Assembly (NCBI RefSeq): GCF_018069705.1
Contig: NZ_CP072943.1
Location: forward strand, 2,543,453 to 2,607,452
Length of the DNA stretch: 64,000 nucleotides
Direction of reading: 5' to 3'
Source: Aminithiophilus ramosus
Lineage (GTDB): Bacteria > Synergistota > Synergistia > Synergistales > Aminithiophilaceae
A program made the translations under genes and the position numbers. The notes under the pieces were generated by a model. That model saw only the letters and a list, made by a program, of their open reading frames with translations. It searched no databases and was not told the DNA's origin. Below are positions 37,169 to 43,309 of this stretch, piece by piece (position 1 is the first letter of the stretch; the number at the start of each line of letters is the position of its first letter).

Positions 37169-37543
37169 TCAGCGCCGGGCCAGCACTTCGATCTCGACGA
37201 GCCCCCCGGCGGGAAGGGCCGCCACCTGAACGCAGGAGCGGGCCGGGAAGGGCTCGGCGAAGAAGGAACCGTAGACGGCGTTGACGACGGCGAAGTCCTT
37301 CATGTCGGCCAGGAAGATCGTCGTCTTGACCACGTTCTCCAGAGTCAGCCCCGCCGCGTCGAGGACGTTGCCGATGTTCTCCAGGGCCTGACGGGCCTGG
37401 GCCTCGACGCCGTCGACGAGCTTGCCCGCCGCGGGATCGATGCCGAGCTGGCCCGAGAGGAAGACCGTGTCGCCTCCGTCGATGGCCGGGGAGTAGGGGC
37501 CGAGAGCCTTCGGTGCCTTGTCGGTGTGGATTGCCTTCTTCAC
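37169..37543 (-). CDS. ridA: RidA family enamine/imine deaminase
   Basis: A 124-aa protein of the YjgF/YER057c/UK114 family. GPYSPAI near residue 15, VFLSGQLGIDP, and the C-terminal FPARSCVQVAALPAGGLVEIEVLA contain the conserved Arg that binds the carboxylate of 2-aminoacrylate-type intermediates. RidA hydrolyses reactive enamines/imines released by PLP enzymes, suitable for a cell with much PLP-based amino-acid breakdown. The GTG start follows AAGGAG. It is 24 bases downstream of the NSS symporter gene and likely co-transcribed. Confidence 0.95.
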   Translation of the reverse strand: MKKAIHTDKAPKALGPYSPAIDGGDTVFLSGQLGIDPAAGKLVDGVEAQARQALENIGNVLDAAGLTLENVVKTTIFLADMKDFAVVNAVYGSFFAEPFPARSCVQVAALPAGGLVEIEVLARR

Positions 37544-37567: not shown

Positions 37568-38959
37568 TTAGAGATCGAGGCCCACCAGGGCCGCCAGAGG
37601 TTTGAGGAGGCCGACGCTCTCGAGCCAGATGATGCCGATGGCCCAGGGGGAGACGTAACGGACGGTCCAGAACCAGAAGGGCACGTAGGCGCTGCGGATG
37701 GTGCCGCCGTTGGAAAGCTCCTCCATGGCTCCCTTTTTCCAGACCCAGCCGACGAGAAGGGCGCACATGAGGGCCGAAAGGGAAAGGGCGATGTTGGAGA
37801 CGAAGTAATCGTAGCAGTCGAAGAAGGTTTTGCCCAGGAAGGTCACCTCTTTCCAGACCCCGAAGCTGAGGGAGGCCGGAACGGCGATGACGAAGCAGAC
37901 GGAGCCGTAGGCCGTCGCCACCTTCTTGCGGTCCGCGGAGAACCGCTCCGAGAAGAAGGAGACGGCCACCTCCATCATGTTGATCGACGACGTGAGGGCG
38001 GCGATGACGAGAAGGATGAAGAAGGCCCCGGCGAAGAGGGTGCCGGCCGGCATGGCGCCGAAGACGGCCGGGAGGGTGATGAAGACCAGCCCCGGACCGG
38101 CGGCGGGCTCCATGGAGAAGGCGAAGACGGCGGGGAAGATGACCAGTCCGGCCATGCAGGCGATGGCCGTGTCGCAGAGGGCGACCCAGAAGGCCGACTG
38201 GATCAGATTCTCCTCCCTGTCGAGATAGCTGGCGTAGGTGGTCATGCTCGAAATGCCGACGCTGAGGGAGAAGAAGCTCTGGGCCAGGGCCGCCACGACG
38301 ACGCCCAGGGTGATCTTGGAGAAGTCGGGCCGGAGAAACCACCGAAGGCCCTCGCGGGCTCCGGGAAGGGTGACGGAACGGAGGACGAGGGCGACGAGGA
38401 GAACGAAGAGAACGGGCATGAGGATCTTGCTGTAGCGCTCGATGCCCGCGGCGACGCCTTGGGCGATGATGAAGGCCGTGGCTCCCATGAAGAGGAAGAG
38501 GTAGGCGATTGGGGCGCCGACGCCGCCGATGAAGCTCCCGAAGAAGGCCCCGGCCCCGTCGGGCGTGATGCCGCCGAAACGGCCAAGACAGGCCTGGAGG
38601 GCATAGCGGATCGTCCAGCCTCCGACGACGGAGTAGAAGGCCAGGAGGAGGAAGGAGGTGAGAACGCCGAGGTAACCGACCCAGGCGAAGCGGGCGGAGA
38701 GCTTGCGGTAGCACTCGACGGCGTTGGAGCGGCCGTGGCGCCCGATGACGAACTCGACGAGGAGAAGGGCCGTGGCGACGAAGATGACGAAGAAGAGATA
38801 GACGAAGACGAAGGCGCCGCCGCCGTTCACCCCCGCCATGTAGGGAAAACGCCAGATGTTGCCGAGCCCGATGGCGGAACCGGCCGAGGCCAGGATAAAA
38901 CCGACGCGCGAGGTGAACCGGTCGCGCTGAGGCGTCCTTGTGTCATCCTGCAGGGACAT
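37568..38959 (-). CDS. Neurotransmitter:sodium symporter (NSS) family amino-acid transporter
   Basis: A 463-aa LeuT-fold transporter with about 12 hydrophobic segments. The ATG at 38959 follows AAAGGAG. SRVGFILASAGSAIGLGNIWRFPY and NGGGAFVFVYLFFV form TM1-TM2 with the Na+ and substrate-site unwinding; later SFFSLSVGISSMTTYASYL corresponds to TM6. Bacterial NSS members carry amino acids such as tryptophan, tyrosine, leucine or methionine. The gene shares a ridA operon and has a leader element like that of the tryptophanase gene, pointing to an aromatic amino acid, though this is inferred. Confidence 0.9.
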   Translation of the reverse strand: MSLQDDTRTPQRDRFTSRVGFILASAGSAIGLGNIWRFPYMAGVNGGGAFVFVYLFFVIFVATALLLVEFVIGRHGRSNAVECYRKLSARFAWVGYLGVLTSFLLLAFYSVVGGWTIRYALQACLGRFGGITPDGAGAFFGSFIGGVGAPIAYLFLFMGATAFIIAQGVAAGIERYSKILMPVLFVLLVALVLRSVTLPGAREGLRWFLRPDFSKITLGVVVAALAQSFFSLSVGISSMTTYASYLDREENLIQSAFWVALCDTAIACMAGLVIFPAVFAFSMEPAAGPGLVFITLPAVFGAMPAGTLFAGAFFILLVIAALTSSINMMEVAVSFFSERFSADRKKVATAYGSVCFVIAVPASLSFGVWKEVTFLGKTFFDCYDYFVSNIALSLSALMCALLVGWVWKKGAMEELSNGGTIRSAYVPFWFWTVRYVSPWAIGIIWLESVGLLKPLAALVGLDL

Positions 38960-38973
38960 CGCGAGTTCTCCTT

Positions 38974-39039
38974 TCAAGCGGGAAGAAGAGGCAGATGACC
39001 GGGCCAGGTCTTGCGGACCTCGGGCCCGGAAAACTCCAT
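38974..39039 (-). CDS. Possible leader peptide of the NSS symporter operon
   Basis: A 21-codon frame (MEFSGPEVRKTWPGHLPLLPA) starts at 39039, contains one Trp codon (codon 12, followed by Pro) and ends with a TGA that overlaps the ribosome site of the symporter gene. It spans the hairpin at 38999-39029. This layout is like that of attenuation or coupling peptides such as TnaC. No good ribosome site precedes the ATG, so translation is uncertain. Confidence 0.3.
   Translation of the reverse strand: MEFSGPEVRKTWPGHLPLLPA
38999..39029 (-). promoter_or_regulatory. Leader hairpin of the NSS symporter operon
   Basis: CCGGGCC..AGGTC pairs with GACCTGGCCCGG: 12 bp with a 2-base bulge and a 5-base loop, ending about 25 bases before the ribosome site of the symporter gene. 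It is inside the putative leader frame. Confidence 0.5.
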
Positions 39040-39074
39040 CTCGGCTGCTCTCGGCTCGGTTGGAGACCTCTGTC
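39034..39074 (-). promoter_or_regulatory. Leader element shared with the tryptophanase gene (NSS copy)
   Basis: Read on the minus strand it contains, in order, CAGAGGTCTC, CCGAGCCGA, CAGCCGA and GGAG. The same blocks in the same order and nearly the same spacing are at 41868-41909 before tnaA. A further CAGCCGAGA lies upstream at 39082-39090. The element lies ~80 bases after the predicted transcription start. Confidence 0.6.
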
Positions 39075-39158
39075 TGACTCGTCTCGGCTGGCGGGGAGGA
39101 AGCTGTCGGGCTAGGTCACGCCATCACCTCCGGGGCGTTGCGACGAGTAATCGCGGCC

Positions 39159-39187
39159 ATTGTACCACCAAAGCGACGAAATTCACA
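39159..39187 (-). promoter_or_regulatory. Candidate promoter of the NSS symporter-ridA operon
   Basis: TACAAT at 39159-39164 (minus) with TGTGAA 17 bases upstream, a weak -35. It predicts a leader of about 190 bases. Between it and the DUF3795 gene (39188-39267) nothing is seen. Confidence 0.4.
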
Positions 39188-39267
39188 TAAAGGCCCTCGC
39201 GGCCGAAACGAAGCCGGGCGCAGGCCAGGCGGGACTCGAGAACGTGCCTATCGTCGGCAAAAACAGA

Positions 39268-39744
39268 TCATCTCTTCAATAGAGAAATATTTCTTCTTAT
39301 GAATTTATTTCCTGGATCATTGCCACATTTCTTGCATATTATATAATACGGCGAATTTATGAATCCGCAGGACTCACATGAATAATCTTCCTTCATCTTC
39401 TCCAGCCATTGTGTAACCCCTTTTTCTTTTCTGAATCGCGCTGATTCGAACAATTCAGCACGATGAGGCATTTGTCCTTGAAATTCCCTGAGTTCATCAC
39501 ATGGAAAATCATGACATTCCTCACAGTTATCTATTTCTTTATTCTGAGCACACTCTCTGTATCTGCAACTTCTACAATGCAGACTCAAAATCTTTGATCG
39601 ACATCCCTCGCAGGGGATGTCCTCCTTCTTTGTTTTCATTTTTTGGGCAATTCTTTCAAGTTCTTTGTCATCCTTGTTTTGAGTCGCTATATACACACCG
39701 CAGGACTCGCAAAAAAGGCCACAATACGCCACCGAATCTTTCAT
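39268..39744 (-). CDS. DUF3795 cysteine-rich protein, low-GC gene
   Basis: A 158-aa cytoplasmic protein with about 17 cysteines in CxxC and CxxxC pairs: YCGLFCESCGVY at the N-terminus, CEGCRS, HCRSCRYREC, CEECHDFPC and a C-terminal CESCGF...ICKKCG zinc-ribbon-like pair. The first half matches DUF3795, whose function is unknown; metal or Fe-S binding is likely. The ATG at 39744 follows AAAGGAG. Base composition is far lower in GC than all neighbours (from about 39255 to 39790), pointing to recent transfer. No mobile-element gene is beside it. Confidence 0.8.
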   Translation of the reverse strand: MKDSVAYCGLFCESCGVYIATQNKDDKELERIAQKMKTKKEDIPCEGCRSKILSLHCRSCRYRECAQNKEIDNCEECHDFPCDELREFQGQMPHRAELFESARFRKEKGVTQWLEKMKEDYSCESCGFINSPYYIICKKCGNDPGNKFIRRNISLLKR

Positions 39745-40008
39745 TTCGCTTTCTCCTTTACTCACCGGAGATGCTGCATAGCTTCTTCGTAACGCCTTTA
39801 TGACGCCGAATCGCGCCGCAAACGCCCTCCAGAGGTGGATCCCCCCGTCAAAACCCGAGGACCCCGAAGGCCATCGGAGCCAGACCGCCATCGGTCCCTC
39901 CCGGTTCGAGAAGCGAGCCTCTCTCGGCGTGCTGCAGGCCATGTCGTCCGCCACAAGAAGCGGCCCACCCGCCTGAGGGACAGCACCGCCATCGGGAACG
40001 GCGACGCC

Positions 40009-40755
40009 TCACCGCGCCATCAGGGCGAACACGCCCCAACCCAGGTATTCGCGCGTGTAGGCGGCGTAGCGCTCCGGTTCCGACGTCAGCCTGGCCCGAA
40101 CCTCTTGCGCGAAATCGTCGTCGGCGTTGGCCTCGAGCCACCGGCGCATGGTGAGCCACTTGGCCGCCTCGTATCGGTCCCAGCCCTCCTGGTCGGCCAG
40201 GACCATTTCGACGACGTCGTAGCCGAGGCGGCCGAAAGACGCGAGGAGTTCCGGAAGGCCGAGAAAGTCGGAGACCGATCGGGCAAGACAGCCCTTGGCA
40301 ACCTCTTCCGTCGGCGGCATCCGGCGCCAGTAGGGCTCGCCGATGAGGATGATCCCTCCGAAGGCCAGGCTCCGGGCCAGAAGCTCCACCGTGCCGGCGA
40401 CGCCCCCGCCGATCCACGTGGCGCCGACGCAGGCCGCCACGCCGACCTTCTCGTCCGAGACATAGCCGGCGGCGTCGCCGTGGATGAACGTGACCTGGTC
40501 GGCGACGCCGAGTTCCTCGGCACGGCGTTTCGCCTGCTCGGTGAAGAGGGGGCTCATGTCGACGCCGGTGCCGGTGATGCCGTGATCGCGCGCCCAGGTG
40601 CAGAGCATCTCCCCCGAACCGCTGCCGAGATCGAGGACGCTCGTCCCCCGCTCCAGACGCAGCGCCGCGCCGAGAGTGGCGAACTTTTCGGGCGTGAAGG
40701 GGTTGTGGATGCGGTGACCGCTCTCCGTGACGGTGAAGATCCGTGGAATATCCAA
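40009..40755 (-). CDS. SAM-dependent methyltransferase, class I
   Basis: A 248-aa protein from a TTG at 40755 preceded by GAAAGGGGA. Motif I VLDLGSGSGEML (near 45-55) binds SAM, followed by GTGVDMSPLF and FIHGDAAGY, the usual class I order. The rest (WIGGGVAGTVELLARSLAFGGIILIGEPYW) is like ubiE/SmtA-type small-molecule methyltransferases. The substrate is unknown. An in-frame ATG at 40947 would add a low-complexity extension with no family match. The 264-base gap between it and the DUF3795 gene carries nothing supported. Confidence 0.8.
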   Translation of the reverse strand: MDIPRIFTVTESGHRIHNPFTPEKFATLGAALRLERGTSVLDLGSGSGEMLCTWARDHGITGTGVDMSPLFTEQAKRRAEELGVADQVTFIHGDAAGYVSDEKVGVAACVGATWIGGGVAGTVELLARSLAFGGIILIGEPYWRRMPPTEEVAKGCLARSVSDFLGLPELLASFGRLGYDVVEMVLADQEGWDRYEAAKWLTMRRWLEANADDDFAQEVRARLTSEPERYAAYTREYLGWGVFALMAR

Positions 40756-41047
40756 TGCAGAAAATCCCCTTTCGGACGTGAACAGATTCGGTCGGGGCCC
40801 GACCGGAGGACAGGGCCTTCCCGGCTTTTCCGCGGCCATGCCCGCCCCGCCGGAACCCGGTCCAGCGACAGGGCCCGCTCGGAAGCGCCGACCGGCCGCC
40901 GCGTTCCGAGTCACGGCGGCCCCGGAAGACGGGACGACCGCCTTCAAGGGCAGCTTGGCTCGTGATTCCGTTTGCGGGGGAACTATAGAGGCACGAAAAT
41001 AAAAAAAGCTGTCGAAAAAAACTGCGACGGCTACGACAAGAAAGGAT

Positions 41048-41326
41048 TCACCGACACCTCCTCTTTAGAGGAGAACCTGGCCTACGTGTCATTGAGACCA
41101 ATGCCCAACCTGTTCCATTACAGGCCGTGCATGACGTTTCATCGCCGATAACCTTGGTTTTAGCTCGTCCAGTCCCTCGGCAGGATGCACACTTTCGTGC
41201 CGGTTGGGCGACCAACACGCTGCCTTGCCCATTACAGGAAGTGCAAGACGTTTCATCGCCAAGAACCTTGGTTTTGACTCGTCCAGTCCCTCGGCAGAAT
41301 GCGCAGGTTTCAGGTCTAGTCGCCAT
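41048..41326 (-). CDS. Mini protein of two DnaJ-type zinc motifs
   Basis: A 92-aa protein built almost wholly of two copies (residues 8-35 and 46-73, period 38) of C..C.GTGR.KTKV.GDETSC..CNG.G. Each copy has the CxxCxGxG pairs of the DnaJ central zinc domain, so each should hold one Zn2+. There is no J-domain, signal peptide or membrane segment. The ATG follows GAGGAGG. It could be a stand-alone disulfide/chaperone-type or RNA-binding zinc module; the function is unknown. The tail is basic (RRPGSPLKRRC). Confidence 0.75.
   Translation of the reverse strand: MATRPETCAFCRGTGRVKTKVLGDETSCTSCNGQGSVLVAQPARKCASCRGTGRAKTKVIGDETSCTACNGTGWALVSMTRRPGSPLKRRCR
41116..41304. repeat. Internal tandem duplication, 114-base period, in the zinc mini gene
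   Basis: Bases 41116-41190 and 41230-41304 match at 66 of 75 positions by direct count. The high DNA identity (synonymous sites included) suggests a recent duplication of a 38-codon unit rather than old protein convergence. Confidence 0.8.
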
Positions 41327-41816
41327 ACTCTAGCCTCCTCTTTGATCGAATAAATTTTCACCCACTTTCTTCCCTATCCCATAAATAAACCGTTTCTGCA
41401 AGCCCGAAAGCCTCACGCGGACCTGCGGATACAAACCTGGGCTCCCTGCAAGACAGGACGATGCCAGCGAGCTTGCGGAAAGAAGACATCAAAGCCATGG
41501 GGTTCCACCTCAAGGACTATAAAGGCTTCATCCTCGTCCTCAGAGGAACGTAGTACAAGCGGAGCGGCCTTGTCAAGCGTTGATTTCATTTTTCCTACAT
41601 ACGCATGAAACAGTCTCTTCCGGCCCTTCCCGAGCCTCTCGGCCCGATCGAGGCGTTTGCCCGGGACGCGGGCCGGCCGTTCGGCGGCACCGGAGGAAGG
41701 GCTCGGCCCTTTCCGGGAAATCTCTGGAAAAAGGCAGCAAGGCCCCGACAGGCCTCCTGAGGGGGACGTCGGCGGGCCGGCTCCGTCGGACCTGGGCTTG
41801 GAAAAGGGATTGTTCG
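41327..41816. other. Gap before the tryptophanase gene with no supported gene
   Basis: Nearly 500 bases carry no convincing gene. A 30-codon frame at 41461-41553 (plus; MPASLRKEDIKAMGF...) has only a weak AGGA site and may be a remnant. A small imperfect hairpin lies near 41693-41715. GC falls below the local level between about 41327 and 41400. Confidence 0.5.
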
Positions 41817-41845
41817 TTGCTCTTCCGTGAAAGATATGCTATATC
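41817..41845 (+). promoter_or_regulatory. Candidate tryptophanase promoter
   Basis: TTGCTC (41817-41822) and TATATC (41840-41845) at 17-base spacing. The -35 is weak, consistent with an activated promoter. The transcript would begin near 41852 and carry the shared leader element. Confidence 0.4.
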
Positions 41846-41867
41846 GGTAGATAAGTTTAGCTTAGGT

Positions 41868-41909
41868 GCCAGAGGGTCTCTCAGCCGAGCCGAAGACCAG
41901 CCGAAGGAG
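41868..41909 (+). promoter_or_regulatory. Leader element shared with the NSS symporter operon (tnaA copy)
   Basis: Contains CAGAGGGTCTC, CCGAGCCGA, CAGCCGA and GGAG in the same order as the minus-strand element at 39034-39074. Here its last block is the ribosome-binding site of tnaA (AGGAG, 8 bases before the ATG), so a factor or structure on it could block translation. Confidence 0.6.
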
Positions 41910-41917
41910 TCTTTGAA

Positions 41918-43309
41918 ATGGTTGAACGCATCATGCCCGAGCCCTACCGCATCAAGATGGTGGAACCCGTCAAGGTCCCCGACAGGGACGAGAGGGAGGA
42001 GGCCCTGAAGAGGGCCCATTACAACATGTTCGGCCTCCGCTCCCAGGACGTCTACATCGATCTGCTGACCGACTCGGGGACGGGAGCCATGAGCAAGTAC
42101 CAGTGGGGTGCCCTCATGATCGGCGACGAGGCCTACGCCGGAGCGGACAGCTTCTTCAGCCTCAAGAAGGCCGTCAAGGAGATTCTGGGCTTCGACTACG
42201 TCGTCCCCACCCACCAGGGCCGGGCCGCCGAAAACGTCGTCTTCGGAACCCTCGTCAAAAAGGGCGACGTCGTCCCCTTCAACATGCCCTTCGACACGAC
42301 GCGGGCCCACATTTTCAACAACGGCGGCGAGCCGCTGGACTGCGTCATCGACGAGGCCTACCACCCCGAGGTGCAGCACCCCTTCAAGGGCAACGTGGAC
42401 ATCAAAAAGCTCGAGGCGGCCGTCGCCAAATACGGCAAGGACCGCATTCCCTTCGTCATGGTCACCATCACCAACAACTCCGGCGGCGGCCAGCCCGTGA
42501 GCCTCGAGAACCTCCGCCAGGTCTCGGACGTCTGCCGCAGCCACGGCATTCTCCTTCTCCTCGACGGCGCCCGCATGGCCGAGAACGCCTACTTCATCAA
42601 GACCCGCGAAGAGGCCTGCCGCGGCATGTCCGTCGCCGAGATCCTCAAGGAGACGATGAACACGGCCGACGCCATCACCGTCTCCTGCAAGAAGGATCCT
42701 CTCGTCAACATCGGCGGCATGGTCTGCAGCCGCACCGAGGAGCTCCACAATTCCTTCCTCCCCCGGGTCATCCTCTTCGAGGGCTACGCCACCTACGGCG
42801 GCCTGGCCGGGAGGGACCTGGAGGCCCTCGCCCTGGGACTGAGGGAGATGGTCGACGAGCAGTATCTGGCCCACCGCGTCGCCCAGGTCCGCTACCTCGG
42901 CGATCTGCTGGGCGAGGGGGGCGTTCCCTGCGTGACCCCCGCCGGCGGACATGCCATCTTCATCGACGCCGCCGCCTTCCTGCCCCACATCCCCCAGAGC
43001 GCCTACCCCGCCGACGTGCTGGGCATCGAGATCTATAGGGAAGGGGCCATCCGCGGCATCGGACTGGGCGCTCTCGCCTTCGCCACGCCCGACGAGACGG
43101 GCCGGATCGTCTACCCCAAGCTGGAGCTTTTCCGTCTTGCCATCAACCGCAGGACCTACACGAACCACCACATCGAGTTCATCGCCCAGACGATTCTGGA
43201 CGTCTACGGGCGGCGCGACGCGATCCGCTACGGCCTCAAGGAAGGCTACGCCCCGGCCGTCAAGGGGATGAAGCACTTCCTCGTCCACCTCGAACCCTAC
43301 GCCCTCTAA
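41918..43309 (+). CDS. tnaA: Tryptophanase (tryptophan indole-lyase)
   Basis: A 463-aa PLP enzyme of the beta-eliminating lyase family, splitting tryptophan to indole, pyruvate and ammonia. IDLLTDSGTGAMS, PTHQGRAAEN and the SCKKDPLVNIGG Schiff-base region (Lys pair 258-259) are intact. The close relative tyrosine phenol-lyase has Thr in the FTTT stretch and Arg (R381) in the phenol pocket. Here the stretch is FDTT (D126) and the Arg position is Leu in IRGIGLG, as in tryptophanase. Substrate choice therefore favours tryptophan. It stands alone, followed by a hairpin terminator; a leader element is shared with the NSS symporter operon. Confidence 0.88.
   Translation: MVERIMPEPYRIKMVEPVKVPDRDEREEALKRAHYNMFGLRSQDVYIDLLTDSGTGAMSKYQWGALMIGDEAYAGADSFFSLKKAVKEILGFDYVVPTHQGRAAENVVFGTLVKKGDVVPFNMPFDTTRAHIFNNGGEPLDCVIDEAYHPEVQHPFKGNVDIKKLEAAVAKYGKDRIPFVMVTITNNSGGGQPVSLENLRQVSDVCRSHGILLLLDGARMAENAYFIKTREEACRGMSVAEILKETMNTADAITVSCKKDPLVNIGGMVCSRTEELHNSFLPRVILFEGYATYGGLAGRDLEALALGLREMVDEQYLAHRVAQVRYLGDLLGEGGVPCVTPAGGHAIFIDAAAFLPHIPQSAYPADVLGIEIYREGAIRGIGLGALAFATPDETGRIVYPKLELFRLAINRRTYTNHHIEFIAQTILDVYGRRDAIRYGLKEGYAPAVKGMKHFLVHLEPYAL

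Follow-up and report, generated by a model that had tools for sequence, protein, structure and literature searches.

TRAP (MtrB), the trp RNA-binding attenuation protein, is familiar from Bacilli, where it represses the synthesis and uptake of tryptophan. The Bacillus protein forms an 11-subunit ring that binds 9–11 NAG triplets (PMC4347634, PMC4027176), with residues E36, K37, K56, and R58 contacting each triplet (PMC4027176). Here we describe a bipartite array of NAG triplets in two leaders of Aminithiophilus ramosus (Synergistota), both within one window (the whole 64,000-nt stretch analyzed; contig NZ_CP072943.1, positions 2,543,453 to 2,607,452). One precedes tnaA, encoding tryptophanase, on the plus strand, and the other precedes an operon of an NSS-family sodium symporter gene and ridA on the minus strand. 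To judge from their sequence, both elements are very likely TRAP targets.

The tnaA element most closely resembles the TRAP sites of Bacillus subtilis trpG and trpP. As there, a TRAP with identical RNA-contact residues is present, and 9–11 NAG triplets about 5 nt apart lie in the leader of a tryptophan metabolism gene and reach the ribosome-binding site. Unlike there, the target is catabolic, the array is halved by a gap of 9–12 nt (an anti-Shine–Dalgarno (anti-SD) segment in some families), many triplets are CAG or AAG, the start is predicted to be closed in free RNA, and the host belongs to Synergistota. With the B. subtilis trp leader, where TRAP acts by attenuation, the tnaA leader shares eleven triplets near the 5′ end and a TRAP site engaged in alternative pairing; it differs in having no terminator, and the predicted effect of binding is to open, rather than close, the start. 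In the Escherichia coli tna operon (tnaC, tnaA, and the permease gene tnaB), tryptophanase and a tryptophan permease are under joint tryptophan control, the pathway logic proposed here as well. However, the tnaA leader here contains no open reading frame (ORF) for a tnaC-type leader peptide, the ORF upstream of the symporter gene has no conserved tryptophan codon, and control is proposed to run via a tryptophan-binding protein and not a stalled ribosome. The NSS protein itself resembles the MhsT/TnaT-type tryptophan transporters in being nearest MhsT and, in congeners, having tnaA as its neighbor; it is unlike these in being encoded with ridA behind a TRAP-type leader, with tryptophan as its predicted substrate.

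Triplet arrays in the tnaA and NSS-ridA leaders

The original prediction, made from the window alone, had described a shared element of about 41 nt composed of conserved blocks, at 41868–41909 (+) before tnaA and at 39034–39074 (−) before NSS-ridA, with the tnaA copy running into the ribosome-binding site. Both copies were found at these positions with the blocks in the order and orientation described, and the tnaA array does end in the SD sequence; the element is longer than proposed, however, spanning 41848–41909 (+) and 39034–39090 (−). The components of the two arrays, with the tryptophanase gene, are as follows.

41848..41872, plus strand: 5′ half of the tnaA array, TAG-AAG-TAG-TAG-CAG (5 triplets), beginning at about the inferred transcription start (from sequence, array scores, and 5-nt AG periodicity)
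41873..41881, plus strand: gap between the halves of the tnaA array, AGGGTCTCT; the same position in other families holds an anti-SD segment (e.g., CCTCC)
41882..41909, plus strand: 3′ half of the tnaA array, CAG-GAG-AAG-CAG-AAG-GAG (6 triplets), the final two forming the SD sequence AAGGAG at 41904–41909 (from sequence)
41881..41926, plus strand: predicted hairpin closing the tnaA start, with TCAGCCG pairing to bases after the ATG and GAAGAC to GTCTTT around the SD (minimum free energy and centroid folds)
41918..43309, plus strand: tnaA, tryptophanase, 463 aa (NCBIfam NF009709, 628 bits against a cut-off of 285; best PDB match tryptophanase 8sbg); the protein sequence is identical to that from 'Synergistota bacterium strain L-13' (CP074691)
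39070..39090, minus strand: 5′ half of the NSS array, CAG-GAG-GAG-CAG-CAG (from sequence)
39058..39069, minus strand: gap of the NSS array, AGGTCTCCAACC
39034..39057, minus strand: 3′ half of the NSS array, GAG-GAG-CAG-GAG-GAG (from sequence)

With spacers in lower case, the tnaA leader (41848–41909) reads TAG-at-AAG-tt-TAG-ct-TAG-gtgc-CAG, a 9-nt gap, and CAG-cc-GAG-ccg-AAG-ac-CAG-ccg-AAG-GAG, giving 11 NAG triplets, and the NSS leader (39090–39034, −) reads CAG-cc-GAG-ac-GAG-t-CAG-a-CAG, a gap, and GAG-cc-GAG-ag-CAG-cc-GAG-atg-GAG, giving 10. The CAGAGG(G)TCTC block of the original prediction corresponds to the last 5′-half triplet plus the gap, and the CCGAGCCGA and CAGCCGA blocks are triplets of the 3′ half. 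In both congeners, 11 NAG triplets are present in each leader, the eleventh in the NSS leader arising where the gap ends in CAG. The arrays have the 7–11 NAG triplets and 2–3 nt spacers of a TRAP site, deviating in the single 9–12 nt gap, in spacers that are occasionally 0, 1, or 4 nt long, and in the CAG/AAG-rich composition at tnaA.

Local alignment of the two leader regions scored 42, compared with a mean of 18.3 and a maximum of 36 over 2000 dinucleotide-shuffled pairs, and the similarity exceeds chance. Using a profile trained on three tnaA and three NSS leaders, all from the genus, we obtained strong matches in the 3.1-Mb genome at these two leaders and nowhere else (E 2e-13 and 2e-12; third match, E 0.17); both copies are in the training set, and the informative part is the drop to the third match alone. 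The element is not scattered over many unrelated places in this genome, which would have spoken against the original prediction, and the motif does recur upstream of orthologous genes in relatives, with close NSS orthologs (at least 90% identical) confined to the genus. An exact-word pattern built from the shared blocks was tried and replaced by the profile, as it matched without mismatch only at the tnaA copy and otherwise at scattered two-mismatch sites, with the reversed control giving a similar number. A strict sigma-70 promoter scan returned nothing at either leader, the transcription starts of both being inferred by eye, and a scan of the window with Rfam riboswitch and T-box covariance models returned no match.

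The A. ramosus genome encodes TRAP (PF02081, 119 bits; NCBIfam MtrB equivalog NF009724, 122.6 bits over a cut-off of 117), and the four RNA-contact residues are conserved in this protein and in nine relatives. Residue 51 is Leu, as opposed to His in the solved TRAP used for comparison, and the other positions checked around the pocket (25, 27, 30, 47, 49, 52, and 53) match it. Across families f1 and f10, residue 51 is Leu, Phe, or Tyr and not His, which may alter tryptophan affinity.

Of 163 genomes of the order, 47 carry the TRAP gene. Strong tnaA orthologs (at least 67% identity) were counted in 24 of the TRAP-encoding genomes and in 13 of the 116 without TRAP. We scored chains of NAG triplets within the last 120 nt of the tnaA leader in 25 leaders from TRAP-encoding genomes (six families; two from the same species) and 17 from genomes lacking TRAP. 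The median array score was 15.1 in the former and 5.7 in the latter (Mann–Whitney p 1e-7), and individual leaders reached p < 0.05 in 23/25 and 2/17 cases, respectively; the leaders are related by descent and these p-values are optimistic, the contrast between families being the firm part. The main exception among genomes lacking TRAP is G024 (81% complete; its sister G007 encodes TRAP), the other being G076 (p 0.034). Family f3, whose tnaA is ~75% identical, has neither TRAP nor arrays, and the same was true of eleven more distant tnaA-bearing genomes of other phyla. AG dinucleotides in the leaders of TRAP-encoding genomes are spaced 5 nt apart 111 times against 45 expected (z 10.9), compared with z −0.7 where TRAP is absent. 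At tnaA, 137 of 248 triplets are of the weak CAG/AAG types, whereas triplets at trp genes are mostly GAG, as would be expected if tryptophan breakdown needs more tryptophan than the shut-off of synthesis.

GAG arrays lie on the SD of trpD in A. ramosus and its congeners, at the trpE start in the congeners, and at both trpE and trpD in family f2, with terminator-like hairpins (judged by eye) preceding several of them. The GAG-array pattern, when searched over relatives, gave many simple-repeat matches and its reversed control was uninformative (the pattern is palindromic in reading), and we have hence used it only for trp-gene sites in TRAP-encoding genomes. Within the A. ramosus genome, six NAG triplets at an exact 5-nt period occur as a single perfect match, which spans the start codon in a second trpB gene. 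This gene (C1:3046000-3046240), located outside the trp operon, also has a terminator-like hairpin plus a further GAG array upstream, and is likely to be doubly TRAP-controlled. As in Bacillus, tryptophan synthesis in A. ramosus is probably governed by TRAP, whose control here would also take in tryptophanase and the permease.

Two further observations concern the distribution of TRAP. The reading frame that starts immediately downstream of the TRAP gene resembles pyruvate kinase in some relatives, a layout different from mtrAB in Bacillus. Many genomes of family f5 (G006, G023, G030, G043, G048, G056, and others) encode TRAP and have no tnaA ortholog at the threshold used; TRAP is probably retained there for other targets.

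Sign of control at the tnaA start

From the TRAP gene, the arrays, their co-occurrence, and the predicted closed starts, we infer binding, its tryptophan dependence, and its sign as follows. Tryptophan-loaded TRAP would engage the 5′ triplets while they emerge from the polymerase and then wrap the 3′ triplets. The site takes up the greater part of the tnaA leader. In free tnaA RNA, the SD and start codon would be held in a pairing with either the gap or the 3′ half, keeping translation low, and at high tryptophan TRAP would strip this pairing, allowing tryptophanase to be made. We put the probability that TRAP opens the tnaA start in this way at roughly 0.55. Activation is favored because tryptophan-dependent shut-off of tryptophanase in a tryptophan-synthesizing fermenter would be self-defeating, and because the start is predicted to be folded shut in free RNA.

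The predicted cost of opening the A. ramosus tnaA start is 12.6 kcal/mol, compared with 7.1 in shuffles. Opening costs above shuffles were obtained for 18 of 20 leaders from TRAP-encoding genomes (Fisher p 3e-6, a combined value that treats related leaders as independent) and for four of nine from genomes lacking TRAP (p 0.49). At trp-gene TRAP sites, the cost was not significantly above shuffles in 10 of 12 cases, the other two being f2 trpE starts behind a terminator-like hairpin. Excluding the array from pairing, to mimic bound TRAP, lowered the median opening cost by ~4 kcal/mol. The predicted means of closure vary: f6 and the majority of f10 carry a CCTCC-type anti-SD in the gap, ~36–49 nt upstream of the tnaA start; in f7, GTCCC pairs with GGGAC; and f1 uses the array, which pairs with bases on either side of the SD and ATG. 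When only pairing of the SD was measured, the combined p was 0.005, a less pronounced effect than that seen with the opening cost for the start as a whole. TRAP is reported to nucleate at 5′ triplets and to wrap 5′ to 3′ (PMC4027176), an order that suits a free 5′ half as the landing place and a 3′ half that is to be melted out.

Several points weigh against activation. A single repeat on the ribosome-binding site suffices for TRAP to block ribosomes, and the TRAP effects listed in a review are all negative (PMC4347634). In the A. ramosus genus, the SD consists of the final two triplets of the array, which points to repression, and a clash between TRAP and the ribosome at the tnaA start is possible. 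The closing helix differs among families and has no covariation support, the leaders behind the combined p-value are related, the whole-leader fold of A. ramosus tnaA is unremarkable (z −0.30), and the leaders of G040 and G015 show no closed-start effect. The 9–12 nt gap and the many CAG/AAG triplets also make the array weaker than Bacillus sites, and with Leu51 in the A. ramosus TRAP, the response to tryptophan may differ.

Alternatively, the site may be a repressing one, with tryptophan-loaded TRAP covering the array and the tnaA SD and barring ribosomes, which is its mode at Bacillus trpG and trpP; we regard this as quite possible, though not the favored account. The array reaches the SD in f1, overlapping it in the A. 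ramosus genus, and abuts it elsewhere, stopping 3–9 nt short, and both the sufficiency of one repeat at the ribosome-binding site and the negative record of TRAP would fit. Switching tryptophanase off at high tryptophan would be sensible if the enzyme ran mainly in reverse (tryptophan from indole), or if it belonged to a tryptophan-acquisition set together with NSS and trpB. However, repression of a catabolic enzyme by its own substrate in a tryptophan-making species would be futile, and yet the array is kept in six families. Repression would also leave unexplained the closure of the start in free RNA by the array or gap, which is unlike most trp-gene sites.

It is improbable that TRAP acts on the tnaA mRNA in some other way, e.g., as a protector of the 5′ end against decay, or through an altered response to ligand in which apo-TRAP or TRAP with another ligand binds. 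The array does start at about the inferred +1 in several leaders, and the substitutions at residue 51 in two families could suit a changed response, but the other pocket positions checked match a solved TRAP and decay control has no direct evidence.

The original prediction had seen a resemblance to TRAP sites and held a DNA-level operator to be equally possible. The likeness to TRAP sites is supported and the parity is not: TRAP is strongly favored because of the TRAP gene, the 5-nt periodicity, the arrays following TRAP presence across genomes, and the arrays at trp genes, none of which an operator predicts. An operator for a transcription factor common to both promoters would suit the divergent arrangement of tnaA and NSS and the presence of only two strong copies in the genome. 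Nonetheless, what is conserved across families is a 5-nt NAG period and no fixed word, and the element sits in leaders up to the SD or the upstream-ORF start and tracks TRAP presence, making an operator very improbable. Chance or compositional purine repeats are hardly credible: single leaders reach only p 0.002–0.12, which would suit them, but the periodicity, the contrast between genomes with and without TRAP, and the profile matches of both copies (E ~1e-12; next match 0.17) stand against them.

The NSS-ridA operon and its leader

Downstream of the NSS array lie an upstream ORF and the two genes of the operon.

38974..39039, minus strand: upstream ORF of 21 codons; its start (ATGGAG...) lies within the array and its end just 5′ of the NSS SD
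37568..38959, minus strand: NSS-family sodium symporter (best PDB match MhsT 4us3, E 6e-104)
37169..37543, minus strand: ridA, in an operon with NSS (NCBIfam Rid family TIGR00004, 168 bits)

That the two units may handle the same amino acid, as originally suggested, is borne out for tryptophan: the lyase falls in the tryptophanase subfamily, the transporter is nearest MhsT among solved structures, and tnaA and NSS are close divergent neighbors in congeners. The symporter is likely an MhsT-like tryptophan permease. The inclusion of ridA in the regulated set fits, because tryptophanase releases aminoacrylate, which Rid proteins hydrolyze. The divergent spacing of tnaA and NSS is 364 nt in congener G001, ~1.5 kb in G002, and ~3 kb, with other ORFs, in A. 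ramosus. One of these, a small ORF at 41048–41326 (−), has repeated CxxCxGxG-type motifs and is DnaJ zinc-finger-like; the G001 interval is too short for this ORF plus both leaders.

The NSS array terminates at the ATG of the upstream ORF, ~80 nt ahead of the NSS start. The frame and stop of this ORF are kept in all three genus genomes, and it may serve in translational coupling to NSS; tnaC-like peptide control was considered and rejected, as the ORF has a tryptophan codon in only one of the three. In all three genomes, TCTCC of the NSS gap could base-pair with GGAGA in the ribosome-binding site of NSS. The opening cost was not above shuffles at either the upstream-ORF start or the NSS start, and so speaks for neither sign of control at NSS. 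TRAP at this leader could block the upstream ORF and, by coupling, NSS, or could free the NSS site from the gap TCTCC. NSS relatives at 46–60% identity had no clear array in their leaders.

Tryptophan homeostasis in Synergistota

We found no description of TRAP control of tryptophanase, or of TRAP in Synergistetes, in the open-access literature searched. What may be new here is TRAP control in Synergistota that reaches tryptophanase, through a bipartite site that may activate. Synergistota, a group of amino-acid-fermenting bacteria, very probably place the breakdown and uptake of tryptophan under TRAP in addition to its synthesis, and the sign may be the opposite one for breakdown. At high tryptophan, TRAP on the trp genes would shut synthesis, and the NSS-ridA leader would offer the same bipartite site to the same protein; with synthesis turned down and breakdown up, TRAP would act as a tryptophan homeostat. 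We give about even odds to its full two-sided form in Synergistota, in which the same tryptophan-loaded ring would repress synthesis at strong GAG arrays and, at a weaker bipartite array, switch on translation of tryptophanase by melting the hairpin that hides the start.

If true, such a homeostat would constitute an activating TRAP switch, in which the same ring gives opposite outputs by triplet position and pairing partner alone. The presence of TRAP across a distant phylum, wired to tryptophanase, would widen its role to control of the whole pathway, and TRAP at tnaA suggests a way for fermenters that form indole to keep tryptophan from being made and degraded simultaneously.

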